Below are positions 2,433-32,171 of a stretch of DNA of 34,896 nt, in pieces. The translations under genes were made by a program, and so were the position numbers. Below the pieces are notes generated by a model. It searched no databases. It was not told where the DNA came from and saw nothing but the letters and a program-made list of their open reading frames with translations. The stretch is from a virus: positions 1 through 34,896 of the IMG/VR virus record IMGVR_UViG_3300036791_001912. The stretch is one strand, 5' to 3'. Each line of letters begins with the position of its first letter. Position 1 is the stretch's first letter.

Positions 2433-2451
2433 GGTATTGCTCAAGCATAAT
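2423..2451 (+). promoter_or_regulatory. Hybrid promoter across the IS left end
   Basis: TTGACA at 2423-2428 lies in phage sequence just outside the element. After 17 bp, CATAAT lies at 2446-2451 inside the element. The transposase ATG at 2459 is only eight bases downstream of the -10, so the message would be almost leaderless. Confidence 0.5.
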
Positions 2452-5655: not shown

Positions 5656-6095
5656 CGTTCTTCAATGTCCACGTTGTCTTGCAGCTTCAGCCACTTTTTG
5701 TCGCGGCGGTAGGTCGCGGTTCGCACCCCTTTCACATCGATCACATGACGATCCCCGCGCGTGTCGAAGAACACAAAGTCCGCAAGGTATTCCGCCACAA
5801 TCGCCGTCCCGCCCTGCTTCGTCGGGCACATCAACGGGAAGGGTTCTTGTAATCGCAGGTCGGTAATCTCTCCAGCCGCTTGGCGAATCTTCAGCTCCTG
5901 ATAACACACCGCCTCTTTTTTCGATGCGAACTCATGCTGCAACCTGGGATGGCCGCCGACGATTTCGACGCTGCGGAAGACGACGAGCGTTTGTTCATTG
6001 CGATACTTTGATTCGTCCTTGTAGGGAATCGTCGCGACCGACTTCTGGCGTTTCTGGAGGTGCCGCCGCAGATCGTCTTCGGTCCACTTCGTCAT
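5652..6095 (-). CDS. DUF1064-family nuclease-like protein
   Basis: A 147-residue protein of the phage DUF1064 type, often found in replication or recombination regions and thought to have a PD-(D/E)xK-like nuclease fold. Visible family elements are KYRNEQT near residue 30, FASKKEAVCYQELKI (56-70), AGEITDLRLQEPF, a strand with YLADFVFFD (the acidic position) and HVIDVKG (Asp-x-Lys). These would form the metal-binding E/D...D-x-K site. A structure-selective nuclease role is inferred from the family. It follows the 71-residue gene by 12 bases and overlaps the XRE start by four. Confidence 0.75.
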   Translation of the reverse strand: MTKWTEDDLRRHLQKRQKSVATIPYKDESKYRNEQTLVVFRSVEIVGGHPRLQHEFASKKEAVCYQELKIRQAAGEITDLRLQEPFPLMCPTKQGGTAIVAEYLADFVFFDTRGDRHVIDVKGVRTATYRRDKKWLKLQDNVDIEER

Positions 6096-6323: not shown

Positions 6324-6523
6324 GGGCCGGCGATCCCTTCGTCCATGATGCGATTCAGCATGCGCAGCGCCGCCTGATTGGCATTGATCGCCGAGACGAG
6401 CGCGGCATCATGGCCGGCAAAGGCCGCCTGCATCGCCGTGTGCGCGGACCGAATCGCCGCGAGCGCGTCGGCGTGCGCGTCGAGAATATCGTGCATGGAT
6501 TGCCGGATTTCCTGCTCAGTCAT
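6320..6523 (-). CDS. Small Ala-rich helical protein
   Basis: A 67-residue protein, almost entirely helical and Ala-rich (MTEQEIRQSMHDILDAHADA onward), with no known domain. It probably forms a coiled coil or helical hairpin. I chose the ATG at 6523, which overlaps the end of the RHH gene by eight bases; the longer frame upstream lies inside that gene. It is coupled by ATGA to the next gene. Confidence 0.6.
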   Translation of the reverse strand: MTEQEIRQSMHDILDAHADALAAIRSAHTAMQAAFAGHDAALVSAINANQAALRMLNRIMDEGIAGP

Positions 6524-6785
6524 GATCGGCAACAGGCGTCGCGTGCGAGAGCACATTATGGGCGTTCGGAATCCCTGCTGGACGTTTCCGGCGTCCCGCA
6601 TTCTTCTTCTCGACGTCGGCGAGGGCCTGCAGTAACAGCTCGCGAATAATCCAGGATTGCGATCGTCGTTCCTGCGCGGCCAACGCCCCGATGCGACGCC
6701 GCAAGTCGACGTCGGCCTTGAAGCCCATCATCTTGACGTCCGCTGCCGATGTTGTTCCGTCCGTAGCCGATGTTTTCTTTTTCAC
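6516..6785 (-). CDS. Ribbon-helix-helix-like regulator, first gene of leftward operon
   Basis: An 89-residue protein from the GTG at 6785. Residues 19-58 (MMGFKADVDLRRRIGALAAQ, ERRSQSWIIRELLLQAL) fit a ribbon-helix-helix DNA-binding fold: a short strand, then two helices with the common S-x-x-I-I-R-E pattern. The C-terminal tail is basic. The predicted promoter lies so close that translation from GTG 6785 would be nearly leaderless; an ATG at 6731 is an alternative start. A perfect palindrome within its own promoter makes autorepression likely (inference). Confidence 0.65.
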   Translation of the reverse strand: MKKKTSATDGTTSAADVKMMGFKADVDLRRRIGALAAQERRSQSWIIRELLLQALADVEKKNAGRRKRPAGIPNAHNVLSHATPVADHD

Positions 6786-6792
6786 GACAACA

Positions 6793-6822
6793 AGAATAAG
6801 CGTCACTCAATGAGTGTGTCAA
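6793..6822 (-). promoter_or_regulatory. Operon promoter with palindromic operator in the spacer
   Basis: On the minus strand TTGACA (6822-6817) is followed after 18 bp by TATTCT (6798-6793). The spacer holds the perfect palindrome CACTCA-A-TGAGTG (6804-6816). A dimeric repressor bound there would block RNA polymerase. The first gene of the operon encodes a ribbon-helix-helix-type protein, the natural candidate. Confidence 0.6.
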
Positions 6823-6851: not shown

Positions 6852-6939
6852 ATGCGTTTAACCTGGATTGTGGTGGAAGATCGATTCGCTGGCGGACAAA
6901 GTAGGGCATCCACGGACATGGACGCTGATGGGCGCCCAC
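6852..6939 (+). pseudogene. Decayed copy of the 5' end of the DUF1376 gene
   Basis: From the ATG at 6852 the sequence aligns with the start of the gene at 7105: ATGCG.TT.ACC, TGGTGG, ATCGAT, CGCTGGCG, CACGGACATG and GGGCGCC appear in the same order. Small insertions and deletions break the reading frame. It is a remnant of the gene's 5' end, left about 250 bp upstream of the intact copy. Confidence 0.6.
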
Positions 6940-7000
6940 ACTGGTACTTCATGCAGTGTCGAACTGGTACTTCATGCAAGTCAAGCTGGCAGTACATGTT
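6940..7000. repeat. Iteron-like direct repeats upstream of the DUF1376 gene
   Basis: ACTGGTACTTCATGCA occurs at 6940-6955 and again at 6963-6978, a period of 23 bp. A weaker third copy (CTGGCAGTACATG) starts near 6986, about one period on. A second repeated theme (GGTAG...TTACG) occurs twice at about 7001-7040. The length and spacing, about two helical turns, are typical of binding sites for plasmid replication initiators. The rest of 7001-7104 holds no gene I can support. Confidence 0.45.
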
Positions 7001-7104: not shown

Positions 7105-7731
7105 ATGCGGTTGACCGGGCTCTGGTGGTGGATCGATCGCTGGCGAAAAAGTACGGCCTACACGGACATGACCCTCACGGAACAGGGCGCCTACCGGAAT
7201 CTCCTGGATGAAGCCCATCTACGCGGCGGCCCCCTCCCAAATGACGAGCGTATCCTCGCCAAAGCGTGCGGCGATGCCATGGCATGGACATCGGTCCGCC
7301 AAGCAGTGTTAGCTCGGTTCGAACTCAAAGGCGACTGCTTATATAATGAAACCCTCAATGAGGTATTGCAGCGGTCGCGAGAAATGTCTGAGCGTCAATC
7401 ACTTAACAGCCGAAAACGGTGGGATAAATACAAAAACGGACACGCCACAAAGTCATCCCGCTTATCCCATTCACTGTCCCACTCGACATCCCAAATGGCA
7501 TCCCAAACCGATGCCACAACCTATCCCTCCGGATCCGGATCCGGATCCGGATCAGAAAGAGAAGAAGAAGAAGCGAAAAACCGTGCGGACGATTCAGCCG
7601 TGCCGCCGGGGAATGCCGACGCTGCCTCCCCCCCTGTAATCGAGCAGGAGAAAATACAAGAAATTCGTAAAGCGATGGCGGCGACCATGCGCCGCCCCCA
7701 TGACAAGCCGCCCCGGCCGGTGCCGCGATGA
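7105..7731 (+). CDS. DUF1376-family replication-type protein
   Basis: A 208-residue protein. Residues 1-90 match the DUF1376/YdaU-type phage family: WWIDRWRKSTAYTDMTLTEQ, GAYRNLLDEA, LPNDERILAKACG, then LYNETLNEVL. The family is found in phage replication regions, often upstream of helicase loaders. The middle is a Ser-rich linker with a Ser-Gly run encoded by GGATCC repeats (about 7530-7552), followed by a Glu run. The C-terminal end, IRKAMAATMRRPHDK, is nearly the same as that of the HTH replication protein at 9638-10399. GGAG lies seven bases before the ATG. It overlaps the next gene by four bases. Confidence 0.8.
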   Translation: MRLTGLWWWIDRWRKSTAYTDMTLTEQGAYRNLLDEAHLRGGPLPNDERILAKACGDAMAWTSVRQAVLARFELKGDCLYNETLNEVLQRSREMSERQSLNSRKRWDKYKNGHATKSSRLSHSLSHSTSQMASQTDATTYPSGSGSGSGSEREEEEAKNRADDSAVPPGNADAASPPVIEQEKIQEIRKAMAATMRRPHDKPPRPVPR

Positions 7732-7982
7732 GAACCTGGGACCGTGTGCGGTATCACGAGCGCTGCGGCGGGTGTGGGCTGTTACTCGAGATCAGCGAAC
7801 CGGTGTTGCGGATCGTGCTGCGCGGCCTAGACCGCCCCCTGCTGCGCTGCCAGGATTGCGCCGGGCTCGCGCCGCTGGACCTGCCGCCGCTGCCAGAGCG
7901 CGCCCCCGTGGAACCGCACGTCACACGGATCGCCCCACGACACGCGGCGCGGGAATGGATGCCCTACCCCGATTCGGATTAG
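7728..7982 (+). CDS. Small zinc-ribbon-like protein
   Basis: An 84-residue protein with two cysteine pairs, CGGC (residues 13-16) and CQDC (about 41-44), separated by a hydrophobic strand region. This suggests one zinc ribbon. The rest is Pro/Arg-rich. The ATG overlaps the stop of the DUF1376 gene (ATGA), so it is in the same unit. The function is unknown; small zinc proteins of this kind often sit beside phage replication genes. Confidence 0.7.
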   Translation: MRTWDRVRYHERCGGCGLLLEISEPVLRIVLRGLDRPLLRCQDCAGLAPLDLPPLPERAPVEPHVTRIAPRHAAREWMPYPDSD

Positions 7983-7992
7983 GAGCCCCGAC

Positions 7993-8157
7993 ATGAGCGC
8001 ACAGTGGAAAGTCATCAAGACCTCGTTGGAACGCCTGGACCGCGTCCAGAGCACTGAATTTGCGCTGAACGATCTGGCTAAGCAAGACTGGGACGTGGTC
8101 GAGCTGATCCAAGAGCAGGGGTATGTCTACATAATCGCAAAAAAGCCAGCAAATTAA
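7993..8157 (+). CDS. DUF4177-like small protein
   Basis: A 54-residue protein that begins MSAQWKVIKT, continues with a helix (EFALNDLAKQDWDVVEL) and ends with a strand, GYVYIIAKK. This strand-helix-strand pattern with the Gly/Asp-Trp-x-x-V turn is that of DUF4177 proteins, which have no known function. AGGAG lies seven bases before the ATG. It is the last gene of the short rightward unit. Confidence 0.65.
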   Translation: MSAQWKVIKTSLERLDRVQSTEFALNDLAKQDWDVVELIQEQGYVYIIAKKPAN

Positions 8158-8165
8158 TACAAACC

Positions 8166-8248
8166 CGCGAGAAGGCCATTTAAAGGCCGTCTGTGGCCCG
8201 TAGGTGAGCGCTCCTGCAAAGGGGGGATAAGGGGGCGCCGTTCTCGCG
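8166..8248. other. Long-range inverted repeat, possible structured RNA
   Basis: CGCGAGAA (8166-8173) pairs with TTCTCGCG (8241-8248). The pairing extends inward by GGC/GCC with one bulged base. Inside are a GGCC(ATTTAAA)GGCC motif and the palindrome GAGCGCTC. It lies between convergent genes (8157 and 8330), and nothing else is visible in that 170-base gap except G-runs at 8221-8235. It could be a terminator-like structure, a small RNA or a DNA site. Confidence 0.35.
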
Positions 8249-8329
8249 TCCTAGCGCCTTCCAGCCGCCTTGCTGGGCATCCTGGCTTGGCTGGTTGCCG
8301 TGGAAGAATGTAAAACTTACCAACGGTGG

Positions 8330-8572
8330 TCAGGAATCCAGCCTTTTCCGCAGTTGGCGGATTTCGTCGCTCTGGGTCAGCACCAATGCCTCCAGCCGCG
8401 CGACGGTGTCTTGAAGCTCCCGCATCCGCTCGTCAAGAGACCCCCGTTCGACGGTGATGGTCTTAAGCGCCTCGAACGCCTCGATGAAGGCCGCATCCGC
8501 AGCGTCAAACGCGACGTGGGCACGGCGAAGGCTGTTCCCCATCCGACCAAGCGCGCTATCGAAATCCGTCAT
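8330..8572 (-). CDS. Small coiled-coil protein
   Basis: An 80-residue protein, nearly all helix, with heptad-like repeats in residues 40-80 (ERMRELQDTVARLEALVL and onward). No known domain. The ATG at 8572 has no strong ribosome site. It is the last gene of the Rep-ParA leftward unit and may be an accessory to partition or replication; this is only suggested by position. Confidence 0.55.
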   Translation of the reverse strand: MTDFDSALGRMGNSLRRAHVAFDAADAAFIEAFEALKTITVERGSLDERMRELQDTVARLEALVLTQSDEIRQLRKRLDS

Positions 8573-8604
8573 ATGCGGGCAATTTCATGTCTGTGTAGTC
8601 TATT

Positions 8605-8620
8605 GACACTACGTAGTATC
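8605..8620. promoter_or_regulatory. Palindromic site beside the partition genes
   Basis: The 16-bp near-palindrome GACACTACGTAGTATC contains the perfect 10-bp core ACTACGTAGT. A further GTAGT lies about 20 bp to the left. It straddles the end of the small ParA partner gene. It may be an operator or part of a centromere (parS-like) site for the partner protein. Confidence 0.35.
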
Positions 8621-8975
8621 ATCGGTCTCGTGGTTGGCGATGTTGTTTCAAGCGCCCATCCAGTTGCGCGGCCTCGCGATAGGCATCCAGGAACCCGGCG
8701 CCGGTCTTGGCTGTCCGCAGCGCAGCACGAATCACCATGCTATCGGTGGGACGCACGCCTTGCCCGGCCAGCCACGCGGCCAGCTCGCGGACCAATTGGC
8801 GGTCTTCCTGATGCAGCCAAAACTGAATCGGCTGCCCGACGCGGCGTGTCGTCCGGCTGTTGCGCGCGTTCACGGGCTCGACGGTCAGAGCGTCAAGCAC
8901 GGCGGGGCGTGGCGCGGTGCGCTGAATCGTCGCCAACAGGCCGTTGACCTTGGAGGTGGACGTTTTACGGCTCAT
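8619..8975 (-). CDS. Small ParA partner, possible centromere-binding protein
   Basis: A 118-residue basic protein directly after ParA, overlapping it by four bases. The N-terminal 45 residues look disordered and basic, as in ParG/omega-type partners. Residues 48-90 contain a strand QFWLHQEDR followed by two helices, LVRELAAWLAGQG and DSMVIRAALRTAK, consistent with a ribbon-helix-helix-like fold. In type Ib plasmid partition, a short ParA is paired with exactly this kind of small DNA-binding protein. A 10-bp tandem duplication, GGCTCATAAT, covers the gene overlap (8969-8988). The family assignment comes from position and pattern, not from a strong motif. Confidence 0.6.
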   Translation of the reverse strand: MSRKTSTSKVNGLLATIQRTAPRPAVLDALTVEPVNARNSRTTRRVGQPIQFWLHQEDRQLVRELAAWLAGQGVRPTDSMVIRAALRTAKTGAGFLDAYREAAQLDGRLKQHRQPRDR

Positions 8976-9592
8976 AATGGCTCATAATACTGAGTCTGTT
9001 TAGACTGTGTTGTCTGTGGAGTGTATGACGGCAGCGCTAGCACCGCCACGGCGAGCTGTAAGACTTCCTCGCGCGCCGGGCTGTCGAGCGCTTTCCAGCC
9101 TTGCCCCACGGCATGCTGATAACACTGGCGGGCGCTCAGGGTCGTCGGCAGGGCCGGCACGCTGAGCTGTTTCGCACTCGCCTCGACCAAGCGGCCTAGC
9201 AGCGTCCCTTTCTGCACTTTGTTGAAGGCCACGCGCACGATCGCCGTGGCGTTGCGCCCGTGGACGAAATGCACGGCGTCTTCGGCTTCCCAAATATCGG
9301 CGGGGGAGGGGCTGGTCACGACCAGCACGAGATCCGCATGTCGCACAGCGGTCGCGGTCGCCGTGTGGTCCAGGTTGGGCGGAGTATCGAAAATCACGAT
9401 CTCGGGCGTGCGGGCGTGCGGGTCAGTGGCCAAGAGGGCCAAGGCTTTGGTGCTGGTGCCCTGGACGTCCCAATCGTGCAGGGTCACGGCTTTGCCGGCC
9501 TGCCGAAAGGCTTCAAAGAGCAAAATCGAGAGCGTGCTCTTGCCGACGCCGCCCTTTTTGGCGAGAAGGGTAATATTCAACACAGTCTGCAT
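8972..9592 (-). CDS. parA: ParA-type partition ATPase
   Basis: A 206-residue P-loop ATPase. The deviant Walker A box KKGGVGKST lies at residues 12-20, the Walker A' Asp in HDWDVQGTS at about 40-47, and Walker B IVIFDTPP at 65-72. There is no N-terminal DNA-binding extension, which places it among the short (type Ib) ParA proteins. These move plasmid or phage-plasmid copies along the nucleoid. It is followed by a small basic partner gene and preceded by the Rep gene. The ATG at 9592 has no clear ribosome site. Other members of the superfamily (Soj, MinD) are less likely given the neighbours. Confidence 0.88.
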   Translation of the reverse strand: MQTVLNITLLAKKGGVGKSTLSILLFEAFRQAGKAVTLHDWDVQGTSTKALALLATDPHARTPEIVIFDTPPNLDHTATATAVRHADLVLVVTSPSPADIWEAEDAVHFVHGRNATAIVRVAFNKVQKGTLLGRLVEASAKQLSVPALPTTLSARQCYQHAVGQGWKALDSPAREEVLQLAVAVLALPSYTPQTTQSKQTQYYEPL

Positions 9593-9637
9593 ATTATCAT
9601 GAGTTTATGAAAGCTATGTAGAGTAACGACATCCGTG

Positions 9638-10399
9638 TCAGCGCTGGCCACGTCGTTTGTCATAGGGCCGACGCATGGCGGCGGCCATCGCTTTTCTCAG
9701 CTCACCGATACCAGGGGGGGCAGCCCACGAATTCCCCTGCGGCGGGACTGTACGCGGAACGCTCTTCTCTTTCTTTTCTTGATCTGATTCCTTATATGTA
9801 GCGACTGGGGAGTCGCTTAGTTGGGACTGAGCGACTGGGGAGTCGCTTAGTGAGGCTGACTGAACGACTGGGGAGTCGCTTAGTGAAGTTGACTGAGCGA
9901 CTGGGGAGTCGCTTAGTTGGGACTGAGCGACTGGGGAGTCGCTTAGTTGGGACTGAGCGACTGGGGAGTCGCTTAGTGAGGCTGACTGAACGACTGGGGA
10001 GTCGCTTAGTGAAGTTGACTGAGCGACTGGGGAGTCGCTTAGTTGGGACTGAGCGACTGGGGAGTCGCTTAGTGAGGCTGACTGAACGACTGGGGAGTCG
10101 CTTAGTGATATGGCCGTGACAATTACGTAGTCCAGCCCGGCGATATGTCCAGCCGCGTCGTATCGCTTCTTCGTCAGGATCGCCCCGGCGTCGCGGAGCA
10201 CCTGAAGCGCTCGCTCGATCGCCTTGACTGACAGGCCCAGATCCCCGGCGAGGGTCTGTCGCGTTGGCCCGTCACACTTCCAGTAGCGCGTGCCCAGCCA
10301 GACGTACACGAGCACCGCGTGCGCGTTGAAATCGACGCGTTCCACCACCCACTCGGGCACCATCTGAAACCGCCCGATGTCGTTTGGACGTTCGCACAC
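9638..10399 (-). CDS. HTH replication initiator-like protein with repeat linker
   Basis: A 253-residue protein from a GTG at 10399, preceded by GGAGGTG. Residues 10-95 form an HTH domain like that of plasmid and phage replication proteins: VPEWVV, HAVLVYVWLG, then GPTRQTLAGDLGLSVKAIER, ALQVLRDAGAI and a wing. Residues 98-200 are a Ser-rich linker of 10-11-residue units (LSDSPVAQS variants), encoded by ten copies of a palindromic DNA repeat. The end, LRKAMAAAMRRPYDK, matches the C-terminus of the DUF1376 protein. It heads the leftward Rep-ParA-partner unit. By analogy with lambda O, the initiator may bind the repeats inside its own gene; this is inference. Confidence 0.7.
   Translation of the reverse strand: MCERPNDIGRFQMVPEWVVERVDFNAHAVLVYVWLGTRYWKCDGPTRQTLAGDLGLSVKAIERALQVLRDAGAILTKKRYDAAGHIAGLDYVIVTAISLSDSPVVQSASLSDSPVAQSQLSDSPVAQSTSLSDSPVVQSASLSDSPVAQSQLSDSPVAQSQLSDSPVAQSTSLSDSPVVQSASLSDSPVAQSQLSDSPVATYKESDQEKKEKSVPRTVPPQGNSWAAPPGIGELRKAMAAAMRRPYDKRRGQR
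9801..10105. repeat. Ten-copy palindromic array, candidate replication origin
   Basis: Ten copies of CGACTGGGGAGTCGCTTAG occur, each containing ACT-GGGG-AGT arms (core GCGACTGGGGAGTCGC, first copy 9801-9816). They are separated by spacers of 11 or 14 bases of three types, giving unit lengths of 30 and 33 bp. All units are multiples of three, so the Rep frame stays open. A pyrimidine/AT-rich stretch (CTTTCTTTTCTTGATC, then CTTATATGTA) adjoins at about 9767-9800. Palindromic iterons inside an initiator gene next to an easily melted tract match the layout of lambda ori within gene O. Confidence 0.7.
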
Positions 10400-10447
10400 G
10401 AGCCACCTCCCGGTGAGACGTGCGCGGTGCGAGGCTGTGCAGGTTGA

Positions 10448-10507
10448 CCGCGAGCGATGGGATGCAGTACCCTTCTCGCGGTATTGACCTGACGGTGCCC
10501 GCCGTCA
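10448..10507. promoter_or_regulatory. Two hairpins in the Rep leader
   Basis: CCGCGAG (10448-10454) pairs with CTCGCGG (10475-10481), with an inner GGG/CCC pairing. TGACGG (10490-10495) pairs with CCGTCA (10502-10507). Both lie upstream of the Rep GTG at 10399 and would form in its leader RNA, so control of Rep expression is possible. Confidence 0.4.
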
Positions 10508-10516
10508 CGTCTTTCA

Positions 10517-10558
10517 GCGGCCAGTAGGACACCATCCTGCTGGCCGCGTTCGTTTTTC
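10517..10558 (+). terminator. Strong hairpin with T-run between divergent units
   Basis: GCGGCCAG-T-AGGA (10517-10529) pairs with TCCT-G-CTGGCCGC (10535-10547); the middle T/G is a wobble pair in RNA. GTTCGTTTTTC follows. This is a rho-independent terminator on the plus strand. No plus-strand gene lies just before it, so it may end an antisense transcript over the Rep leader, or isolate the late promoter. Confidence 0.6.
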
Positions 10559-10586
10559 TGGCCCGCATTCTACACCAGGTTGTGCC

Positions 10587-10618
10587 TTGTTCGTTCGCCT
10601 ATCCCTGATATAGCGCTA
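10587..10618 (+). promoter_or_regulatory. Candidate late promoter
   Basis: TTGTTC (10587-10592), a 16-bp spacer and TATAGC (10609-10614), with TG two bases before the -10 (extended -10 form). The palindrome TAGCGCTA (10611-10618) overlaps the -10 and could bind a regulator. It is the last plausible promoter before the long rightward gene block. Confidence 0.45.
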
Positions 10619-10702
10619 CACGTATACACCGATACACATCGCCTTCGTGCGGCGGACCAGCTAGACCACCGTGCTAAGGTTAGCGGCCAAGGAAAGACCC
10701 GC

Positions 10703-10921
10703 ATGGCGAGACTGCCGCGCTATCGTCCGACGCCTCGCGGGGCCGTGGCGGCGTACGCCCCGGCCATTGATGGCCCGTTTCGCTGCGATCACTGCGAGAA
10801 CTTTGTGGACGGCGATTGCAACAAACCGGAACTCGTCGAGGAAGCGAAAATGCTGCGCGGCTTGCCACGCTCGCGCCGTGTCGCGCCGGTCGAAGACGCC
10901 GCGTTGTTGCAACTTTTATAA
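10703..10921 (+). CDS. Small zinc-binding protein
   Basis: A 72-residue protein with Cys-x-x-Cys (CDHCENF, residues 31-34) and a further Cys at 42 (DGDCNKPE), a small zinc-finger-like site often seen in phage proteins. The ATG at 10703 follows AAGGAAAG with good spacing; the frame is open further upstream but without a ribosome site. It is the first gene of the rightward late block. The function is unknown. Confidence 0.65.
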   Translation: MARLPRYRPTPRGAVAAYAPAIDGPFRCDHCENFVDGDCNKPELVEEAKMLRGLPRSRRVAPVEDAALLQLL

Positions 10922-10976
10922 GCCGAAATCCTTGAGGGCGCGGAGTGTCTAAAGTAGTTTTCCGAAGGGAGCGAAA

Positions 10977-11171
10977 GTGGAATACGACGGCATCGTCTAC
11001 GACGACGACGATGAGATCATCGATTGTGACGGCACGTACGAAGTCCACCCGGCGGCGGACGGCGATGGATGGATCGTCGTGAATAGTGCGACTGGCGAAC
11101 TCCGCAACGAACGGCATCACGACTGCGAGGACGCGATCGCAGCCGCCCGCGCGCTCAACGAGGGGGAGTAG
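10977..11171 (+). CDS. Small acidic protein
   Basis: A 64-residue, strongly acidic protein with an Asp run (residues 9-13). A strand pair, YEVHPA.DGDGWIVVNSATGE, is followed by a helix, CEDAIAAARALNE. It starts at a GTG with GGGAG eight bases upstream. Acidic proteins of this size can mimic DNA or bind positively charged partners, but no family is recognised. No small terminase was recognised; this and the other early late-block genes are the positional candidates. Confidence 0.6.
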   Translation: MEYDGIVYDDDDEIIDCDGTYEVHPAADGDGWIVVNSATGELRNERHHDCEDAIAAARALNEGE

Positions 11172-11179
11172 CGCCTTAA

Positions 11180-11476
11180 ATGTCGTTGATCTTCAAAGGC
11201 AAAGCGGCGCAGATCCTGCGCGACACGACGCCCGAAATCCTTTATGCGGGGTGGCGAAATGCCACTGATCTACAGATGAATGGCGATATCTACTATTTCA
11301 CCGAGACCGGCGAATGGTGGATGGCGACTGACAACATCCTCGTCAATAACGACGTCCTCGTCGCACACCCCGACGCCATGCGTATCACGAACGCGTACGC
11401 CGTGCTCGATCCTGCGTTCATCGCGATCCTGTGTGGCGGCGAAGTTCACGGCCGGAACAAACGGCAATTTCCATGA
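11180..11476 (+). CDS. TerL-N-terminus fusion ORF, unknown
   Basis: A 98-residue frame whose first 20 residues, MSLIFKGKAAQILRDTTPEI, are almost the same as the start of the large terminase 307 bp downstream; the DNA is nearly identical over 59 bases. After that the sequence is unrelated (MNGDIYYFTETGEWWMATDN onward from residue 33, ATG at 11276). It could be a fusion, or a separate 66-residue protein starting at 11276 placed behind a displaced terminase fragment. A mini-copy reading MPLIYR then stop lies at about 11258. It is not a functional terminase. Confidence 0.5.
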   Translation: MSLIFKGKAAQILRDTTPEILYAGWRNATDLQMNGDIYYFTETGEWWMATDNILVNNDVLVAHPDAMRITNAYAVLDPAFIAILCGGEVHGRNKRQFP

Positions 11477-11486
11477 GCCGCAATAA

Positions 11487-12950
11487 ATGCCGCTGATCTT
11501 CAAGGGCAAAGCGGCGCAGATCCTGCGCGACACGACGCCCGAAATCAAAGTGCAGGGCGGCTTGAACGCCGGCAAGACGATTGTCTGCCTCGCGAAAGAA
11601 GTGCGCGCCGCGCTCCGCTGGCCGGGGATTTGGATTCTGATCGCCCGCTGGACGGATGAAGCGGTGAAGACGCTGCTGCGCCCGGCGTTCGAACAGGTCG
11701 CGCGCATTGAAGGCATCGCCGACATCCAGCAACGCTGGCGCGACAAAGAGCATTACTACCATTTGACCAACGGCAGCCGCGTGTACGCCTTCGGGTTCAA
11801 AACGCAAAGTCAGGACGTGGAACAACGGTATGGCAAAATTCGTGGGTTTGCCGGCTCCCGCATTTTTGTGGACCAGGCCGAACAACTCCCGCGCGACATC
11901 GCGGAAGAACTCCGCGCCCGATTGCGGCCGGACATCGAAGCCGCCCACAAGGGCGTCAGCTATCCGACGCAACTGACGTTCTCAAATAATCCGACGAATC
12001 ACGGCTCGTGGCTGGCCGTGCAATTTCCGGCGAAGGGCCACATCGAAGGCCGCTACCGGTACGTGCTCTCGCTGTTTGACAATGAGCACAATCTGCCGCC
12101 CGCCTCGATGACGGCCATTCTGAGGACGTACCCGCCCGACCATCCGAAGTACCACACGGTCGTCCTGGGGGAGGACGGCCCGAACATCATCGGCGATGCG
12201 ATCTATGACGCGCAGTTCGATCGCAAGGCGCATGTCCGCGAGATCGCCTATCGGGACGACATGCCGCTGCTCGAGGCGTTTCATTTCGGCACGCACAATC
12301 CCGTGTGGCTGACGATGCAGCGCTCGCCGCATGGCGGCATGCAGTTCCTGGGCGGCCTCATTGGGCGCCATCTGATGCTCGATGATTTTTTCCCCGTCGT
12401 GCATCGGTACCGGAGCGAATGGTTTCCCGACGACGCCGACATCCGCACCTGCACGGGGCCGATGGGCAAAACGTCAAGCGGCTATACCTTGCTCGATCAG
12501 ATTACGGCCGCCCACTTTCTCCCGATCTCGCGCATCGATGGCAACTCGCCGGATGTGCGTCTCGCCATGATCGAATTTCTGGGCGGGGAATTGCGCCGGC
12601 GGACGGTGGCGCGCGAAGAAGCGGTCGGCGTCAATGCCGATCCGGCGAAGTGGCTCAGCGTCGATCCGAAGGGCAATATCGAGCGCACGCCGTTTCTCGC
12701 GTTCGCCTTCGAAGGCGGGTACGTGTGGGACGAAGAACCGGTGAGCGTGGGGAATAAACTGCTGCGGCAGGCCTATGAAGACGACGAATTTGCCAACGCC
12801 ATGCACTGCGTGGAACATCTCGCGCTGAATTTCTGCGCCGGACAGGAAACGGAACAGGAACGGGAGCGGCGCGAACGGCAACAAACGCAGGACGCGCTGA
12901 TGGAGGGGCCGGCGATCGCGGGCGGAGATTTGTCATGGCTGACGATGTAA
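11487..12950 (+). CDS. terL: Terminase large subunit
   Basis: A 487-residue DNA-packaging motor protein. The ATPase half shows a Walker A variant GGLNAGKT (residues 24-31) and a Walker B region RIFVDQAEQLP (about 125-135). Further on it follows one TerL subfamily (NNPTNHGSWLAVQFP, LFDNEHNLPP, NSPDVRLAMIE). In that subfamily, as I recall it, the nuclease half normally has IDFGxHHP and CCDPAG. Here those places read FHFGTHNP (His266) and CTGPMG (Gly324), so two metal-binding aspartates seem to be missing. The start has no strong ribosome site, and the 5' end is duplicated upstream. It precedes the portal cluster as in P22-type phages. Confidence 0.88.
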   Translation: MPLIFKGKAAQILRDTTPEIKVQGGLNAGKTIVCLAKEVRAALRWPGIWILIARWTDEAVKTLLRPAFEQVARIEGIADIQQRWRDKEHYYHLTNGSRVYAFGFKTQSQDVEQRYGKIRGFAGSRIFVDQAEQLPRDIAEELRARLRPDIEAAHKGVSYPTQLTFSNNPTNHGSWLAVQFPAKGHIEGRYRYVLSLFDNEHNLPPASMTAILRTYPPDHPKYHTVVLGEDGPNIIGDAIYDAQFDRKAHVREIAYRDDMPLLEAFHFGTHNPVWLTMQRSPHGGMQFLGGLIGRHLMLDDFFPVVHRYRSEWFPDDADIRTCTGPMGKTSSGYTLLDQITAAHFLPISRIDGNSPDVRLAMIEFLGGELRRRTVAREEAVGVNADPAKWLSVDPKGNIERTPFLAFAFEGGYVWDEEPVSVGNKLLRQAYEDDEFANAMHCVEHLALNFCAGQETEQERERRERQQTQDALMEGPAIAGGDLSWLTM

Positions 12951-13417: not shown

Positions 13418-13614
13418 CGCCCGTCGTCTGCGATGCCTGCGGGAACGACACGGCCCAGCGCGTGACGATGCTGCTCATGGTGGATGACTGGCCGGCGCAG
13501 GGACAGAGCGATGCCACGCGCCAGCTCCAACTGCAGCATGTGCTGCCGCCCGACTCGATCACGCGTATCTTGTGTGAACAATGTCGCGCGAAGATCCGCG
13601 CGCTGGTGCCGTGA
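13414..13614 (+). CDS. Small zinc-ribbon-like protein before portal
   Basis: A 66-residue protein with CDAC at the N-terminus (residues 6-9) and CEQC near the C-terminus (about 55-58), separated by a hydrophobic strand region. This is a probable single zinc ribbon. Both ends overlap neighbours by ATGA-type junctions (13414 and 13614), so it is translated with the portal. The function is unknown. Confidence 0.65.
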   Translation: MTPVVCDACGNDTAQRVTMLLMVDDWPAQGQSDATRQLQLQHVLPPDSITRILCEQCRAKIRALVP

Positions 13615-15938
13615 TGGCGACAAAAACGAAACTCAAGGCCGTGCCGGAGGAAGCGCTGAAGCGGTTCAAACGGTGCGCGGAGCACGAAGAAGAACAGCGC
13701 AAAGCGATTCTCTCCGCCAAGAATTTTCGCGTGGGCAACCAGTGGCCTGACGAAGTGCGCCTGCAACGGCAAGGGGCGCCGGCGATTCAAGGGCTCGCCC
13801 CCCAACCGGCCCGCCCCTGTCTCACCGTCGATCGCATTTCGCAGCCCGTGCGGCAAGTCAGCAACGGCGTGCGGCAATCGAATTTTCTCATCGAAGCGCT
13901 GCCCGCCGGCAACGGCGCGACGAAGGAGACCGCGCGCATTTTCAAAGGCTGGATGCGGCGCCTGCAGAACGATGCGCGCGACGACGCGCCGATCGAATGG
14001 GCGGCGGACCAGGCGGCGGAAGGCGGGATCGGCTGGTTTCGCCTGATGACGTTTGAAACCGATCTCGATCCCCAGCATCCCTTCGATCAGGATCTCCGCA
14101 TCGAGCGCGTCACGAATAATCTCAGCGTGTACTGCGACGAAACCGCCGTGAAGCCGACACGGGCGGATGCGCGGTATCTGTTCGTCACCGAAAATGTGCC
14201 GCGCGACGAATTCACCGATCTCCATCCGAACGCGAATGCGACGACACTCGATGAATTCCGCGCGACGGGCGACGGCGACGGCTGGGTGACGGAAGACAGC
14301 GTGCGCGTGGCCGAATACTGGCGCGTCGAATGGGACGAGACGCGGCAAGTGGAGCTGCACGACGGCACACTGCTCGAGGGGCAGGCGATTGGCGAGGCGA
14401 CCTCCGGCGACGGCCCGACCGATATCAAGCGGGAGCGCACGAAGCGCACGCGCAAGGTGATGTTTTCGAAGATCACGGCGACCGAAACGCTATTCGAAAC
14501 CCCCTGGCTCGGCACGCACATTCCCTATATCCCGATTCTCGGCGAAGAATTGAACGTGGACGGCAAGATCGTCGTGCGCGGCGTCATTGCGCCGGCGATG
14601 GACGCGCAACGGATGGTGAATTACACCTACTCGGCCGCCATCGAAGCGATTGCCCTCGCGCCGAAAGCGCCGTTTCTCTACGCGGCGGGGCAGATCGACC
14701 GCTACAAGCGCATTTGGGCCTCGGCGAACACCGCGAATTATTTCGGCCTGCCGTACGATCCCATCACCATCCAAGGGCAACCCGTGCCGCCACCGCAGCG
14801 CTCGACGGCGGAAGCGCCGATTCAGGCGATGGTGCAACTGATGATTCAATCCGAAGAAGGCGTGAAGGCGACGACGGGCATTTTCGATCCCTCCCTCGGC
14901 AATCTCACGACGAAAGATCGCAGTGGCACGGCGCTGCAAGCGCTGCAGGGCGCGTCACAATTTGGGCAATCGAATTACCAGGATAACGTCACGCGGGCGC
15001 TCGTCTATGCGGGCGAGCTGATGGTGGAACTCGGCCCGAAGATTCTTGACCGGCCGGGGCGCGTGCTCCAGATTCTCCAAGACGGCGACGAGCCGGCCAA
15101 CGTCATGCTGGGCCAGCCGTTCACGCAGGCCCCTGACAGTGGCATGCCGCAGCCGGTGCTCGGCCCCAATCAGCAGCCCGTGACCGATCCGCAGCAGGCG
15201 CAATTGTTCGCGGCGGGCCTGGCGAAGTTTTACGATTTGGCGGCCGGCAAGTACGGCGTCGTCGTGAACGTCGGCCGCAATTCGATCACGAAACGGCAAG
15301 AAAGTAATCGTGCGCTGGGCGATCTGATCCCGCATCTGCCCGAGCAGATGGCGGCGGTCCTCACACCGGAGTACATCGAAACGCTCGACTTCGATGAAGC
15401 CGATACCGCCGCCGCCGCCGCGCGTCGTGCGCTGCCGCCCAATCTCCAGGCGCCGCCGGATCAAGCGCTCTCGCCGGCCGTGCAGGCGCAGCTCGCGCAA
15501 TTGACCACACAAACCCAACAGCTCAATGCGGCTCTCAGCGGCGCCAAGCAGATCATCGACACCGACCAGATCAAGGCGCAGCGCGATCTCCAGAAAATGA
15601 AACTGGAAAAGACCGCCGACATGCTCCGCGACCACGTCAACAATGCCGCGAAGATTCTGATTGCGCGGATTCAGGCGTCCAAGGATGCGTCCTTCGCGGG
15701 CGGGCAGGAAGAAGCGCTGTCCACGGGCATCACCCAGGCGCACGAGGCGTATCAGGCCGCCCTGAATCGTAACCACGATTTCCTGCTGGCGGAGCAGGGG
15801 CACCGGCACACCCTGGAGCAGAACGCGCAAGATCACGCCCATACGATGGATGAGCTGGCCGCGTCCCCGCCGCCGCCGCTGTCCAACGGAAACGGCGCCG
15901 ACGCGGGGAATGGCGCGGATACAGGAGTGTCGGCTTGA
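13614..15938 (+). CDS. P22-like portal protein
   Basis: A 774-residue portal of the P22 type. The N-terminus has the usual HEEEQRKAILSAKNF, QWPDEVR, then PCLTVDRISQPVRQVSNGVR and EALPAGNGATKETA. The DNA-channel and clip region follows (AADQAAEGGIGWFRL). After residue 560 it is Gln/Ala-rich and helical, like the barrel extension of P22-type portals, ending in a Pro/Gly-rich tail. It forms the dodecameric entry ring for DNA and the platform for the gp4-like adaptor. The ATG at 13614 overlaps the previous stop. The order TerL-portal-scaffold-coat matches P22. Confidence 0.9.
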   Translation: MATKTKLKAVPEEALKRFKRCAEHEEEQRKAILSAKNFRVGNQWPDEVRLQRQGAPAIQGLAPQPARPCLTVDRISQPVRQVSNGVRQSNFLIEALPAGNGATKETARIFKGWMRRLQNDARDDAPIEWAADQAAEGGIGWFRLMTFETDLDPQHPFDQDLRIERVTNNLSVYCDETAVKPTRADARYLFVTENVPRDEFTDLHPNANATTLDEFRATGDGDGWVTEDSVRVAEYWRVEWDETRQVELHDGTLLEGQAIGEATSGDGPTDIKRERTKRTRKVMFSKITATETLFETPWLGTHIPYIPILGEELNVDGKIVVRGVIAPAMDAQRMVNYTYSAAIEAIALAPKAPFLYAAGQIDRYKRIWASANTANYFGLPYDPITIQGQPVPPPQRSTAEAPIQAMVQLMIQSEEGVKATTGIFDPSLGNLTTKDRSGTALQALQGASQFGQSNYQDNVTRALVYAGELMVELGPKILDRPGRVLQILQDGDEPANVMLGQPFTQAPDSGMPQPVLGPNQQPVTDPQQAQLFAAGLAKFYDLAAGKYGVVVNVGRNSITKRQESNRALGDLIPHLPEQMAAVLTPEYIETLDFDEADTAAAAARRALPPNLQAPPDQALSPAVQAQLAQLTTQTQQLNAALSGAKQIIDTDQIKAQRDLQKMKLEKTADMLRDHVNNAAKILIARIQASKDASFAGGQEEALSTGITQAHEAYQAALNRNHDFLLAEQGHRHTLEQNAQDHAHTMDELAASPPPPLSNGNGADAGNGADTGVSA

Positions 15939-16248: not shown

Positions 16249-17253
16249 ATGGCCGACGATCTGACGCCGACGGACGCGCAGCACACCGTGGAACTGGACA
16301 ACGGGATCGTGCTCGCCGGCATGGGCGGCGACCACGAAGCGCTGCAGGCGCAGTTCGAAGATCGCGCAGAAGCCCTCACTGGCACGCCGGTGGAGGGCAC
16401 CTCAGAGACGCAGGCGCCATCAGCAGCGCCTGCGCCCCCCCTCACTGAGCCGGTCGAGCCGACGCCTCGCGGACGCAAGCGCTACGACGTCCTCACGCGC
16501 GAACGTGAAGACGCGATTCGTGCGCGCGACGTGGAGAAAACGGCGCGCGAAGCCGCCGAAGCGAAAGCGCGGGATCTCGAAGCCCGGCTGGTCGCGCCCC
16601 CCGCCACGGCGCCGCCCCCCGTGCCCGCGCCACGCGTTACGGAGGGGATCCGCGCGAAGCCGGTCGAAGAAGAAATCGGGATCAAATACGCGACCCATGC
16701 CGACTTTATCGTGGACCTCGCGCGCTGGGTGGTGGAAGGTGAACGCGCAGAACTCATACAGACGCTCGACGCCCGGACCACGTCTCGCATCGAAGCGGAC
16801 CGGGCCTCTCGCAACCGGATGGATCTCGCAAACAACGCGTTTGCGCGTGGCCGTTCCGCTTATCCCGACTTCGATGCACGGCTCAATGCCCCGGAGGTCG
16901 CGAAGATTCTGCTGCCCCCCAGTCATCAGGCGGCGATTCTCGCGATGCCGGAGGCGGAGCATGTCATGTACGAACTTGCAAGTCATCCCGAGACGTTGCA
17001 GCGGCTGGTGAGCTTGCCGCCCAGCGTGGAACTCGGCATGGAACTCGCGAGGCTCGTCCCGCGCACGGCTGTCGCCTCCCCGGCCTCGACAGCGTCCGTG
17101 GTCCGTTCCACCCTCGTGCCTGCGCCCCCTCAGCCGGTGGGGTCAGGGACACGGACCACGAATCCTTCGGCGGCGGACATAGCCATGAAGGGCGGCGATG
17201 ATTACGACAGCTCCGGCTATCGCGAAAAACGCCGCACGGAATTGCGCCGCTGA
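16249..17253 (+). CDS. Putative scaffolding protein
   Basis: A 334-residue protein in the scaffold position between portal and coat. It has a Pro/Ala-rich N-terminal part, a charged coiled coil (residues 80-125, EREDAIRARDVEKTAREAAE), a second Pro-rich linker, a helical middle (170-280) and a short basic C-terminus (YREKRRTELRR). P22-type scaffolds are likewise elongated, helical and end in a basic helix that binds the coat protein. Sequence similarity to a named scaffold is not obvious, so the call rests on architecture and gene order. Confidence 0.6.
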   Translation: MADDLTPTDAQHTVELDNGIVLAGMGGDHEALQAQFEDRAEALTGTPVEGTSETQAPSAAPAPPLTEPVEPTPRGRKRYDVLTREREDAIRARDVEKTAREAAEAKARDLEARLVAPPATAPPPVPAPRVTEGIRAKPVEEEIGIKYATHADFIVDLARWVVEGERAELIQTLDARTTSRIEADRASRNRMDLANNAFARGRSAYPDFDARLNAPEVAKILLPPSHQAAILAMPEAEHVMYELASHPETLQRLVSLPPSVELGMELARLVPRTAVASPASTASVVRSTLVPAPPQPVGSGTRTTNPSAADIAMKGGDDYDSSGYREKRRTELRR

Positions 17254-17912: not shown

Positions 17913-19169
17913 ATGTCTGCTAACAACTTCCTTACAAATCAGGTGATCACGTACGAAGCGCTTGACGTGTTGGAGAACACCGACAGCGCCTCGCGCATTA
18001 TCAACAAGCAATACAGCGACGAGTTTCGCTTTGGCGGCGCGGTGCTGGGCCAAACGCTCTCCATCAGAAAACCGCCGCGTTATGTCGGCCGTCTCGGCCA
18101 GGCGGTCAACATCGAAGGCATCGCCGAAACCTTCGTGCCACTCACGCTCGCATTTCAACGGGGGGTGGACACGACCGTGACATCGCAGGATCTCCTGCTG
18201 CGGATCGATGATTACCGCGAGCGCATCCTCAAGCCGCAGATCGTCCGCGTCGCAAACCTCATCGATCAAGATGTGTGTTCGCTCGCGCAAGGGCTCAACA
18301 ACTTCGTCGGCGTACCGGGCACGACGCCCACGACGCTGACGACGTACCTCGCGGGCAAAACCAAACTGGACAACTTCGCGGCGCCGATGGACGGCGAGCG
18401 CAACGTGATCAACAACCCGGCGGCGGACGCGTCGATCATGGACAACCTCAAGGGCTTGTTCCAATCGGCGAGTGAGATCAAAGAGCAGTACTTGTCCGGC
18501 GCGATGGGCCGCACGATCGGCGCCGACTGGTACATGGATCAGAACATTTTCGTGCAGACGGTCGGCGCGCTCGGGACGACGTCGAATCCGATCGTGAGCG
18601 CGGGACAATCCGGCTCGACGATCACGACGACGGGCTGGCAGGCGGGCGCGGTCACGCTGAACGCGGGCGATATCGTGTCGTTCGTCTCGGCGACGACGCC
18701 GGTGAACGCCTTGAACCCGCCGAGTTACCAGAACACGGGACAGCCGATGCAGTTCGTCGTGACCGCCACGACGAGCGATGTCGCCGGCACGATCGCGATT
18801 CCGATTGCGCCCGCGCTCGTGCCGCCGGGATCCTCCACGCCGCAGAATCAGAACGTCACGAACGCCCCGCCGACCGGCTGCCCGGTCTTTGTCTACAATC
18901 AGCCGGCGGCCAACTTCGCGCAAATCTCCGGCGTCTCGTCCCCGCAAAATCTGTTCGTCCACAAGGATTTCGGCACGTTGGCGATGGTGGACATGCCGCT
19001 GCCTGGCGGCGTGGACAAGGCGTATCGCGCGGCGTCGCGCAAGACGGGCAATACCATCCGCGTGATTCGCGATTACGTAGCCACCAGCGACATGTGGATT
19101 GCCAGGCTCGACGTCCTCTATGGGACCGCCGTGCTGCGGCAGGAGTACGGGGCGCGAGTGGGAGGGTAG
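17913..19169 (+). CDS. Major capsid protein, P22 coat type
   Basis: A 418-residue coat protein matching the P22 gp5 family. The N-terminal region reads ITYEALDVLENTDSASRIIN, then FGGAVLGQTLSIRKPPRY, VPLTLAFQRGVDTTVTSQDL and RILKPQIVRVANLIDQD. The middle contains Gly/Thr-rich strands of the inserted domain, and the end carries the closing strands DMPLPGGVDKAYRAASRKTG and VIRDYVATSDMWIARLDVLY. It forms the icosahedral shell with the HK97 fold. Its ribosome site is within the end of the upstream GIY-YIG gene. Confidence 0.92.
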   Translation: MSANNFLTNQVITYEALDVLENTDSASRIINKQYSDEFRFGGAVLGQTLSIRKPPRYVGRLGQAVNIEGIAETFVPLTLAFQRGVDTTVTSQDLLLRIDDYRERILKPQIVRVANLIDQDVCSLAQGLNNFVGVPGTTPTTLTTYLAGKTKLDNFAAPMDGERNVINNPAADASIMDNLKGLFQSASEIKEQYLSGAMGRTIGADWYMDQNIFVQTVGALGTTSNPIVSAGQSGSTITTTGWQAGAVTLNAGDIVSFVSATTPVNALNPPSYQNTGQPMQFVVTATTSDVAGTIAIPIAPALVPPGSSTPQNQNVTNAPPTGCPVFVYNQPAANFAQISGVSSPQNLFVHKDFGTLAMVDMPLPGGVDKAYRAASRKTGNTIRVIRDYVATSDMWIARLDVLYGTAVLRQEYGARVGG

Positions 19170-24312: not shown

Positions 24313-24313
24313 C

Positions 24314-30707: not shown

Positions 30708-32171
30708 GTGGTCCTCGCCGGCTTCATAGGTCCGTCATATGTGCTGACCTCACCCAATGTGGCGGTCGAGACGCTGTACAACTGGGCGCCGCAAACGGTC
30801 GAAGTCCCCAACGAACGCGCCAAGCTCGTCTACGCGCCCACGCCGGGCCTCACCGTCTACGCGCTGCTCGATGATGGGCCGGTGCGCGGCGGCTTCTACC
30901 AGGACGGCCGATCGTTCTGTGTGTCGGGCCTCGGCGTGTATGAATTCTTCACCAATGGGCCGCCGATCAAGCGGGGCATGGTCTCGGCGAAGGATGCCAA
31001 TCCCGTCACGTTCTCGAGCAACGGCAATGCGGGGCATCAGCTCTACATCACGAGCGCGGGGCGGGGGAATATCTACGATCTGAATGCCAACACGGTCGCG
31101 CCGATCACGGCGCCGGGCTATCCGGCCGCGACGCCGATGGGCGCGTATCTCGACACCTATTTCCTGACGATTCAGGGCGGCTCGGCGCAATTCAACATCA
31201 GCGCGATTGAAGACGGCACGCAGTGGGCCGCCCTCGATTTCTCCATCCGCGTCGGCGGCTCCGACAATTTGGTCGGGATTATCGAGAACAACAAGATCAT
31301 TTTGCTCTTTGGCACCAAGACGACCGAAGCGTGGTACGACGCGGGCGCCGGCACGTTTCCGTTTCAATCCGTGCCGCAAACGATTCTCGAGATGGGCTGC
31401 GTCGCCCCGTATTCGATCGCGAAAACGAGCGGGGCGGCCGGCGCCGTCGTCTGGCTGCATCAGACCTCGCGCGGGCGGGGCATCTTTGTCATGCAGTCGG
31501 GCGGATCCTATGGGACCCAACGCATTAGCACGTACGCGCAGGAACAGGAGTGGCTGAAATATCCGACGTTCAGCGATGTCGTGACGTTCACGTACACCGA
31601 AGGCGGCCACGATTTCGCCGTCGTGACGTTTCCCTCCGGCAATGCGACGTGGGTCTATGATTTCGGCGAACATCTGTGGCATCGGCGCGGCTGGCTGAAT
31701 CCCACCACGGGCCTGCAGGATCGGCGGCGCGAGTGGGTCCATTGGTTGTCGCCGAGTGGGCAGCATCTGGTCGGTGATTGGGAAGTCGGGACGGTCTATG
31801 TGCTGGATCAAACCGTCGGCACCGACAACGGCCAGCCGATTCAACGGCAACGCCGCGCGCCGCATCTGGTGACGGAGCTGACCACGAATTTCTATTCCGA
31901 TTTCCGCCTGGACATGGAAACGGGGCTCGGGGCAACCACCGGACAAGGGAGCGCGCCGCTGGTGCTCTTGAATTGGTCCGATGACGGCGGCCATACGTGG
32001 AGCGATGCGCTCGAACTCGATGCGGGGAGCCTCGGCAAGTATCGGCTGCGGTGTCGCGCGGCGGGCACGCTCGGCAGCTCGCGCGATCGCGTGTTTCAGG
32101 TCACGGTGTCCGATCCGATCCCGTGGCGCGTCAATGAAGCGTACGTGAACGTCATCCAAGGCACCTCATGA
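30708..32171 (+). CDS. gp10-like tail hub / DNA-stabilisation protein (P22 type)
   Basis: A 487-residue protein of the P22 gp10 family. It is strand-rich throughout, with the family start (GFIGPSYVLTSPNVAVETLY, NWAPQTVE), TPGLTVYALLDDGPVRGGFY, the central FSIRVGGSDNLVGIIENN, LLFGTKTTEAWYDAGAGTFP and a closing domain TNFYSDFRLDMETG. In P22, gp10 binds below gp4 and carries the needle and tailspikes. It starts at a GTG at 30708. Here it lies after the putative ejection genes, whereas in P22 gene 10 directly follows gene 4. Confidence 0.85.
   Translation: MVLAGFIGPSYVLTSPNVAVETLYNWAPQTVEVPNERAKLVYAPTPGLTVYALLDDGPVRGGFYQDGRSFCVSGLGVYEFFTNGPPIKRGMVSAKDANPVTFSSNGNAGHQLYITSAGRGNIYDLNANTVAPITAPGYPAATPMGAYLDTYFLTIQGGSAQFNISAIEDGTQWAALDFSIRVGGSDNLVGIIENNKIILLFGTKTTEAWYDAGAGTFPFQSVPQTILEMGCVAPYSIAKTSGAAGAVVWLHQTSRGRGIFVMQSGGSYGTQRISTYAQEQEWLKYPTFSDVVTFTYTEGGHDFAVVTFPSGNATWVYDFGEHLWHRRGWLNPTTGLQDRRREWVHWLSPSGQHLVGDWEVGTVYVLDQTVGTDNGQPIQRQRRAPHLVTELTTNFYSDFRLDMETGLGATTGQGSAPLVLLNWSDDGGHTWSDALELDAGSLGKYRLRCRAAGTLGSSRDRVFQVTVSDPIPWRVNEAYVNVIQGTS

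Follow-up and report, generated by a model that had tools for sequence, protein, structure and literature searches.

How does a phage with a P22-type virion come to carry partition genes, and does it persist in its host as a plasmid? The window, by which we mean the whole stretch of DNA analysed, is a linear IMG/VR contig of 34,896 bp. No exact terminal repeat of at least 8 bp was found at its ends, and the contig probably does not cover the whole genome. Portal, scaffold and coat genes of P22 type were all present according to Pfam and PHROG profile matches (PF16510, phrog_8865 and PF11651), and together with the head closure protein (phrog_578) they agree with the original prediction of P22-like virion genes (Table 1). 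Homologues of the large terminase subunit were found in the related records G025, G029, G038 and L133-L135. The window also contains two transposase genes, an IS1-like one (2414-3280) and a TnpB gene (25073-26188); a search with TnpB returned only distant, plasmid-borne matches (at most 50%). A promoter scan was dropped, as it gave 1 match against 0.9 expected by chance.

The genes in question form a minus-strand operon of rep, parA and a small partner gene, placed between the DUF1376 primosomal gene and the terminase gene, with the neighbouring genes oppositely oriented. All three ORFs are intact. The unit described at the outset, ParA with a small partner and a repeat-bearing Rep gene beside a DUF1376 gene, was thus recovered with all its elements in place.

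Table 1. Features of the window relevant to replication, partition and virion type.
Feature	Position	Strand	Evidence or remark
CopG-type ribbon-helix-helix regulator, divergent from DUF1376	6516..6806	-	PF01402, 3e-6
DUF1376 primosomal protein	7105..7731	+	PF07120, E=1.5e-11; PHROG 'primosomal protein' (phrog_9327), 1e-16
DUF1376 C-terminal tail RKAMAATMRRPHDK, coding DNA	7669..7706	+	84% identical over 38 bp to rep tail, opposite strand
Small CxxC protein after DUF1376	7728..7982	+	homologue in G004 comes after an O-like initiator instead
Small coiled-coil-like ORF, downstream of partner	8330..8572	-	SlyX/DUF465-type matches, all sub-threshold
Small partner, candidate ParG-like centromere-binding protein	8619..8975	-	start overlaps parA stop by 4 bp
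parA, ParF-like Walker ATPase, 206 aa, without N-terminal HTH extension	8972..9592	-	PF13614, phrog_164, NF041546
Most AT-rich 40 bp of the window, rep-parA junction	9573..9612		72.5% AT
rep, probable O-like initiator: putative HTH domain at the N-terminus, linker encoded by the repeats, basic tail at the C-terminus	9638..10399	-	phrog_270, phrog_345
Rep C-terminal tail RKAMAAAMRRPYDK, coding DNA	9657..9694	-	sequence comparison with DUF1376 tail
AT-rich tract abutting array, candidate unwinding element	9765..9804		67.5% AT
Array of ten 30/33-bp units, candidate origin iterons and/or centromere	9800..10108		repeat searches
Terminase large subunit	11487..12950	+	phrog_979, 3e-5
P22-type portal	13581..15938	+	PF16510, 4e-123
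Head scaffolding protein	16249..17253	+	phrog_8865, 5e-14
P22-type coat protein	17913..19169	+	PF11651, 5e-19; phrog_283, 6e-52
Head closure protein	30708..32171	+	phrog_578, 2e-77

Partition genes are present, ParA by matches in three libraries and the partner by homology to a plasmid pair. ParA matched PF13614 (1.3e-11), phrog_164 (2.7e-20) and NCBIfam NF041546 (ParA_partition, 1.6e-32), the last with 112.7 of 180 bits and therefore below the curated cut-off. The protein is short, has a deviant Walker A motif (KKGGVGKST) and lacks an N-terminal HTH, as type Ib proteins do, and its best PDB match was the plasmid protein ParF (4dzz, 9e-7). Judged by length, motifs and best PDB match, ParA is ParF-like. 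Its nearest relative (42% identical) is encoded by the Verrucomicrobial plasmid of Opitutaceae TAV5, on which the gene after parA likewise overlaps it and encodes a homologue of the window partner (BLASTP 2e-9, a single comparison). The partner gene lies directly downstream of parA, as in type Ib systems, and may encode an RHH protein; its product had no family match in Pfam, PHROGs or NCBIfam and no match among plasmids better than E=6, and its predicted structure was poor (pLDDT 46.5). Searches of viral contigs with ParA and with the two-member ParA alignment gave no confirmed relative.

The replication gene had been called plasmid-type, a label that the profile matches do not support. Rep matched phrog_270 ('replication initiation', 2.1e-9) and phrog_345 ('O-like', 7e-5), with HTH_36 below cut-off (0.0027), and had no library match to a plasmid RepA; it appears to be of phage type, resembling lambda O. 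The Rep N-terminus found no confirmed relative among viral contigs, and its predicted structure was poor (pLDDT 45.0). Two Streptococcus plasmid matches to Rep were discounted as low-complexity because they were confined to residues 102-203, the repeat-coded part.

This part of rep contains ten copies of GACTGGGGAGTC at spacings of 30, 33, 33, 30, 30, 33, 33, 30 and 33 bp, an arrangement not due to chance (TRF score 454-577). A palindromic core, GCGACTGGGGAGTCGC, is complete in 7 of the 10 copies, and its inner 12 bp are present in all 10. We rejected core conservation as proof of a DNA role, since a 126-bp block is duplicated exactly and recent amplification accounts for identical copies. The palindromic core, the near-helical spacing and the flanking AT-rich tract, whose AT content is matched or exceeded by no more than 0.18% of the window's 40-bp stretches, argue for a DNA site rather than a mere coding repeat. 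In layout, the in-gene repeats and adjoining AT-rich tract correspond to a lambda-type origin, in which iterons lie inside the initiator gene with an AT-rich tract alongside (PMC7466680). The 16-bp palindrome occurred once each in seven contigs, and none of these loci had a phmmer match to the 28 window proteins that were compared.

It is somewhat unlikely that the small partner binds the array as a centromere for partition (parS/parH-like), whether in place of an origin or in addition to one. The units of the array can be read as tetramer boxes 8 bp apart (GACT, GACT, AGTC), as in ParG-type systems, and three equally spaced boxes per unit arose in 174 of 20,000 shuffles. The array immediately precedes parA, a position taken on the TAV5 plasmid by a long array with 8-bp phasing, and no other direct-repeat family of at least 12 bp was found in 8150-9640 or 10100-11500. 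In RedRock, parS is built from an 8-bp motif repeated eight times in direct orientation (PMC7157519). Several ParF-type plasmids have lag 8 as the first or a high-ranking lag upstream of parA; among the 13 loci compared, the window included, it was the top raw upstream lag in 4 (TAV5, pCB3171_6, P. avellanae and P. syringae) and not in the window, Salipiger, phiHAP-1, Thiothrix, Agrobacterium, Thioclava, Nostoc and two Sulfitobacter records. In the window array, lags 5 and 4 are higher and lag 12 is equal. By lag-8 excess score the array falls in the top 0.18% of its own genome, but a better score still (0.05%) was obtained for the control S. indolifex, for which no small partner is listed. 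Given this control and the 4 of 13 loci, we treat the phasing as suggestive only. Moreover, a position inside the initiator gene is equally that of lambda-type origins.

The surroundings of the cassette are those of a phage. A DUF1376 gene upstream of the terminase gene is usual and occupies the identical position in records L134 and L135, where ORFs related to the CopG-type regulator lie beside it; in G004 and G038 an O-like gene holds this slot. As L134 and L135 have the order RHH, DUF1376, terminase without the cassette, the cassette looks inserted into real phage DNA. Rep and the DUF1376 protein have a common C-terminal tail that is absent from every other ORF searched. ParA was found in 0 of 44 portal relatives and 0 of 17 DUF1376 relatives, which leaves this contig as the only one known to date to carry the cassette. 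That it was joined to the phage by chimeric assembly with a plasmid is very improbable: the window is a single contig and nothing related to the cassette was found within this phage group, but the flanking phage genes are ordered as in L134 and L135, and the common tail ties the cassette to a flanking gene.

Neither Phage_integrase (PF00589) nor Resolvase (PF00239) was matched within the window by profile search, in line with the original prediction that no integrase is seen. The step from there to a plasmid is weak, because none of the 44 portal relatives searched has a tyrosine or serine integrase either, nor ParA; absence from the window is therefore not diagnostic. The portal relatives may simply be virulent. 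By extension, this phage might be virulent too, and the rep-par operon a recently captured plasmid fragment without a role in prophage maintenance. The operon is indeed a minus-strand island and the two transposase genes indicate gene traffic, but we regard this as unlikely: the intact ORFs, the overlap of parA with its partner and the match of the Rep tail to the phage's own DUF1376 protein suggest that the cassette functions within the phage.

Integration by a host recombinase or by an integrase in a missing part of the genome, with par helping only at times, is a further alternative. Most of the longest relatives measure about 38-49 kb against 34.9 kb for the linear record, so that an integrase could lie in a missing part. 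Of the 17 records encoding a relative of the DUF1376 protein, 7 matched Phage_integrase (4 above cut-off), and the glacial phage CY1_63_1964 carries an integrase together with ParA-ParB (PMC4490671). However, neither integrase family occurs in any of the 44 portal relatives, which include circularly permuted genomes of 41-49 kb, and we consider integration distinctly unlikely. Searches of genome contigs with the portal, singly and as an alignment, found no relative, and no clear lysogeny repressor was identified. P22-like 'plasmids' in PLSDB (14 records, 2 examined) were rejected as precedents: one has a lambdoid P22-like phage layout (37.9 of 39.9 kb covered), the other encodes an integrase, and no par gene was listed in the stretches covered of either.

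The positive case for a plasmid state is that an intact rep-par operon sits among phage genes as an insertion. We favour, with a probability of about 0.6, an extrachromosomal prophage, probably a free circle, as the state of this P22-type phage. Of the original phage-plasmid proposal, the operon, the P22-type virion genes and the closeness of ParA to that of a plasmid stand; the missing integrase is not diagnostic, Rep appears to be of phage type, and neither a circular form nor a plasmid state was seen. In such a prophage, Rep would bind the ten palindromes that its own gene contains, melt the adjoining AT-rich tract and recruit the host helicase for low-copy replication, while ParA and the ParG-like partner would separate the copies when the cell divides. 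Lytic replication would fall to the DUF1376 protein, whose gene has the customary primosomal position, and the common basic tail might dock both proteins to one helicase or loader. An improbable extension is that one array serves both as origin for Rep and as centromere for the ParG-like partner, coupling copying to segregation, with DUF1376 and Rep competing for the helicase through the tail.

To our knowledge, described phage-plasmids span few virion types. If the favoured state is confirmed, a P22-type podovirus joins them, and the case would show how an integrase-less phage group can gain plasmid lysogeny through uptake of one 2-kb operon. With the in-gene array it could be tested directly whether one coding element can act as both origin and centromere, and the common tail offers a handle on the switch between lytic and plasmid replication in one phage. 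New here are the pairing of a rep-par cassette with a P22-like virion and the C-terminal tail common to both replication proteins.

Among known systems, the TAV5 plasmid has the closest ParA and a homologous, overlapping partner; however, it carries a MOBF relaxase, and its array differs in sequence and lies outside annotated genes. The telomere phages phiHAP-1, VHML and VP58.5 have a related ParA (about 30-36%) but a virion type other than P22-like, and phiHAP-1 differs in its protelomerase and RepA. The iterons of lambda are palindromic. Lambda O and ori-lambda comprise an initiator gene with iterons and a flanking AT-rich tract (PMC7466680), as in the window, which differs in having ten longer units rather than four, a short Rep C-terminus and attached partition genes. 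TP228 ParF-ParG-parH (type Ib) is similar in its 206-aa ParA without HTH, short downstream partner and upstream repeats (PMC7308502); the window partner, in contrast, is not detectably ParG by sequence, and its repeats are GC-rich and inside rep, whereas the parH spacers are AT-rich. A close functional precedent comes from the cluster A mycobacteriophages, of which about 20%, RedRock and Miko among them, have parABS where others have the integration cassette (PMC7157519). These phages carry parAB and, in a few cases, repA; they lack an integrase, and none is seen in the window either. For that group, of other phages and other hosts, an extrachromosomal prophage has been demonstrated; the cluster A RepA is plasmid-like and is transcribed in the direction opposite to parABS, while Rep of the window is O-like and belongs to the same operon as parA.

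The window, a linear IMG/VR record of 34,896 bp with a GC content of 62%, has no exact terminal repeat of at least 8 bp, and neither tRNA genes nor Rfam matches were found in it. Virion and packaging genes on the plus strand (terminase, portal, scaffold, coat, head closure) begin at 11.5 kb. They are preceded by an early region, mostly on the minus strand, with an HTH regulator, a DUF1064 resolvase-like gene and a CopG-type RHH regulator, after which a DUF1376 gene follows on the plus strand. The island of rep, parA, a small partner gene and a small coiled-coil-like ORF, all on the minus strand, lies between DUF1376 and terminase. Gene coordinates, the PF16510 and PF11651 matches and further family matches confirmed the original prediction of such a unit near DUF1376 in a P22-type virion genome.

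Coordinates and family matches of features in the window
Feature	Position	Strand	Remarks
IS1-like transposase gene	2414-3280	+	early region
DUF1064 Holliday-junction-resolvase-like gene	5652-6095	-	
Decayed copy of DUF1376 gene start	6852-6920		80% over 69 bp to 7105-7170
Two exact 16-bp repeats, ACTGGTACTTCATGCA	6940-6978		23 bp apart, upstream of DUF1376
Small coiled-coil-like ORF	8330-8572	-	
partner	8619-8975	-	start overlaps parA stop by 4 bp
parA	8972-9592	-	
rep	9638-10399	-	
Upstream copy of terminase gene start	11177-11239		95% over 63 bp to 11484-11546
98-aa ORF opened by this copy	11180-11476		
P22-type portal		+	PF16510, 4e-123
P22-type coat		+	PF11651, 5e-19
ORF between scaffold and coat	17289-17912		GIY-YIG homing endonuclease look by eye
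Diverged direct-repeat pair 1	23825-24763		late genes; 71-74% for the three pairs
TnpB/OrfB-IS605 gene	25073-26188	-	within virion gene region
Diverged direct-repeat pair 2	26266-26818		late genes
Diverged direct-repeat pair 3	32662-33976		late genes

The copied terminase start spans the first ~60 bases of the gene, start codon included, and the copy at the DUF1376 start is a second duplication of the same kind. The 16-bp repeats are a possible operator, and the late-gene repeat pairs suggest duplicated segments of virion or tail genes. ORFs similar to the DUF1064 gene were found in loci L133 and L144; ORFs matching the one between scaffold and coat were located near the coat gene in three portal relatives (G005, G029, G038).

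A portal search of viral_contigs matched 100 loci, the best 80 of which were kept. Among 45 records (the window and 44 of these 80, picked by length), ParA and DUF1376 occurred in the window only, and neither Phage_integrase nor Resolvase was found in any. A main argument of the original prediction for a phage-plasmid was the missing integrase; this absence is typical of the phage group and says little. Portal was present in all 17 long portal relatives, coat, scaffold and head closure each in 16, terminase in 3 and the small gene 7728-7982 in 1; rep, parA, partner and DUF1376 were in none. In several relatives (e.g. G020, G023, G027, G029, G030, G038) virion genes are split over the record ends, as would be expected of a circle opened at differing points. 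A search with the DUF1376 protein gave 17 other loci, none with ParA; Phage_integrase was matched at E<=0.001 in 7, in 4 of them above cut-off.

In two of these loci (L134, L135), the RHH regulator, DUF1376 and terminase are arranged in the window's order, and the island is absent. Two portal relatives (G004, G038) carry an O-like gene upstream of portal or terminase, without a tandem array like that of the window; in G004 it immediately precedes a homologue of gene 7728-7982. Across 35 records, phrog_270 was present in 4, window counted, and ParB_N gave a single weak match, in G004, below cut-off. By this comparison, the usual slot holds a single primosomal gene, and the window phage has an extra initiator beside parA.

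Rep itself matched phage replication-initiation families (phrog_270, 2e-9; O-like phrog_345, 7e-5), and its family search gave no match to plasmid RepA. The middle of rep is encoded by ten units spaced by 30 or 33 bp, about three helical turns. Every unit carries the 12-bp core GACTGGGGAGTC, extended in seven to the 16-bp palindrome GCGACTGGGGAGTCGC. An AT-rich stretch of 40 bp (67.5% AT, top 0.18% of the window) adjoins this array, and no 40-bp stretch anywhere in the window exceeds the one at the rep-parA junction in AT content. Array and AT-rich tract together are a candidate origin.

Rep ends in RKAMAAAMRRPYDK followed by KRRGQR, and the DUF1376 protein in RKAMAATMRRPHDK followed by PPRPVPR; the tail-coding DNA of the two genes, on opposite strands, is 84% identical over 38 bp. 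The motif was absent from all other ORFs of the 17 long portal relatives and loci L126-L149, and DUF1376 relatives (47-74% identity over the matched part) end in different C-termini. We infer that the common tail may be a docking surface shared by both proteins, perhaps for a helicase. Phage P1 has separate initiators for lytic and plasmid replication, a parallel to the Rep/DUF1376 pair.

ParA (206 aa, motif KKGGVGKST) lacks an N-terminal extension. It matched NCBIfam ParA_partition at 1.6e-32, under the curated cut-off, and its best PDB matches were plasmid ParF (9e-7) and a chain named ParA. Among 72,556 plasmids, the one of Opitutaceae TAV5 carries the closest ParA, with 41% identity in tblastn and 42% in an alignment; phage relatives, including phiHAP-1 and VHML, are distant (13 of 50,697 records, ~27-36% identity). 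In TAV5, an overlapping ORF after parA is homologous to the window partner (BLASTP 2e-9, single comparison), and both proteins share N-terminal MSxKxSxSK and C-terminal RAALR segments. The window partner matched no family in the profile libraries. The TAV5 protein matches the ParD family weakly (1e-4, below cut-off), a hint of a possible RHH fold. In the Rhizobium plasmid pCB3171_6 (L163), boxes of the ACAGAAAN type, phased by 8 bp, precede parA and a gene annotated as ParG.

No other direct-repeat family of at least 12 bp was found around parA, in 8150-9640 or 10100-11500, which makes the array the obvious choice should the partner require a long repeated site. The regularity of the array unit, GACT-4-GACT-4-AGTC, was reached by 174 of 20,000 shuffles. 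Directly upstream of the TAV5 parA lie ~1.3 kb of 8-bp-phased TGCCAGTT-type repeats (L122, 18699-19981), a probable centromere, and parS of RedRock, a cluster A mycobacteriophage with parABS, is built of 8-bp repeats (PMC7157519). However, a sliding-window test was mixed: the array's top raw lag is not 8, and it was outscored by a control for which no small partner is listed. We regard a partition centromere in the array as unlikely, and dual use as origin and centromere as quite improbable. These two readings overlap each other and the explanation as an extrachromosomal prophage.

An extrachromosomal prophage is the reading we favor, at a probability of roughly 60%, from one probably incomplete contig; the phage-plasmid interpretation of the original prediction is supported in part. 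What upholds it, in place of the integrase argument, is the rep-parA-partner operon, which is intact, includes a candidate origin and is inserted amid otherwise conserved phage gene order. Among the papers listed for P22-like or podovirus phage-plasmids, none named a P22-like phage carrying partition genes in its title or abstract opening. Metagenomic phages with ParA/ParB are described from glacial viromes (PMC4490671). The nearest proven parallel to the window phage is offered by the cluster A mycobacteriophages: parABS replaces the integration cassette in ~20% of them, with repA too in a few, and prophages of those with parABS are extrachromosomal (PMC7157519).
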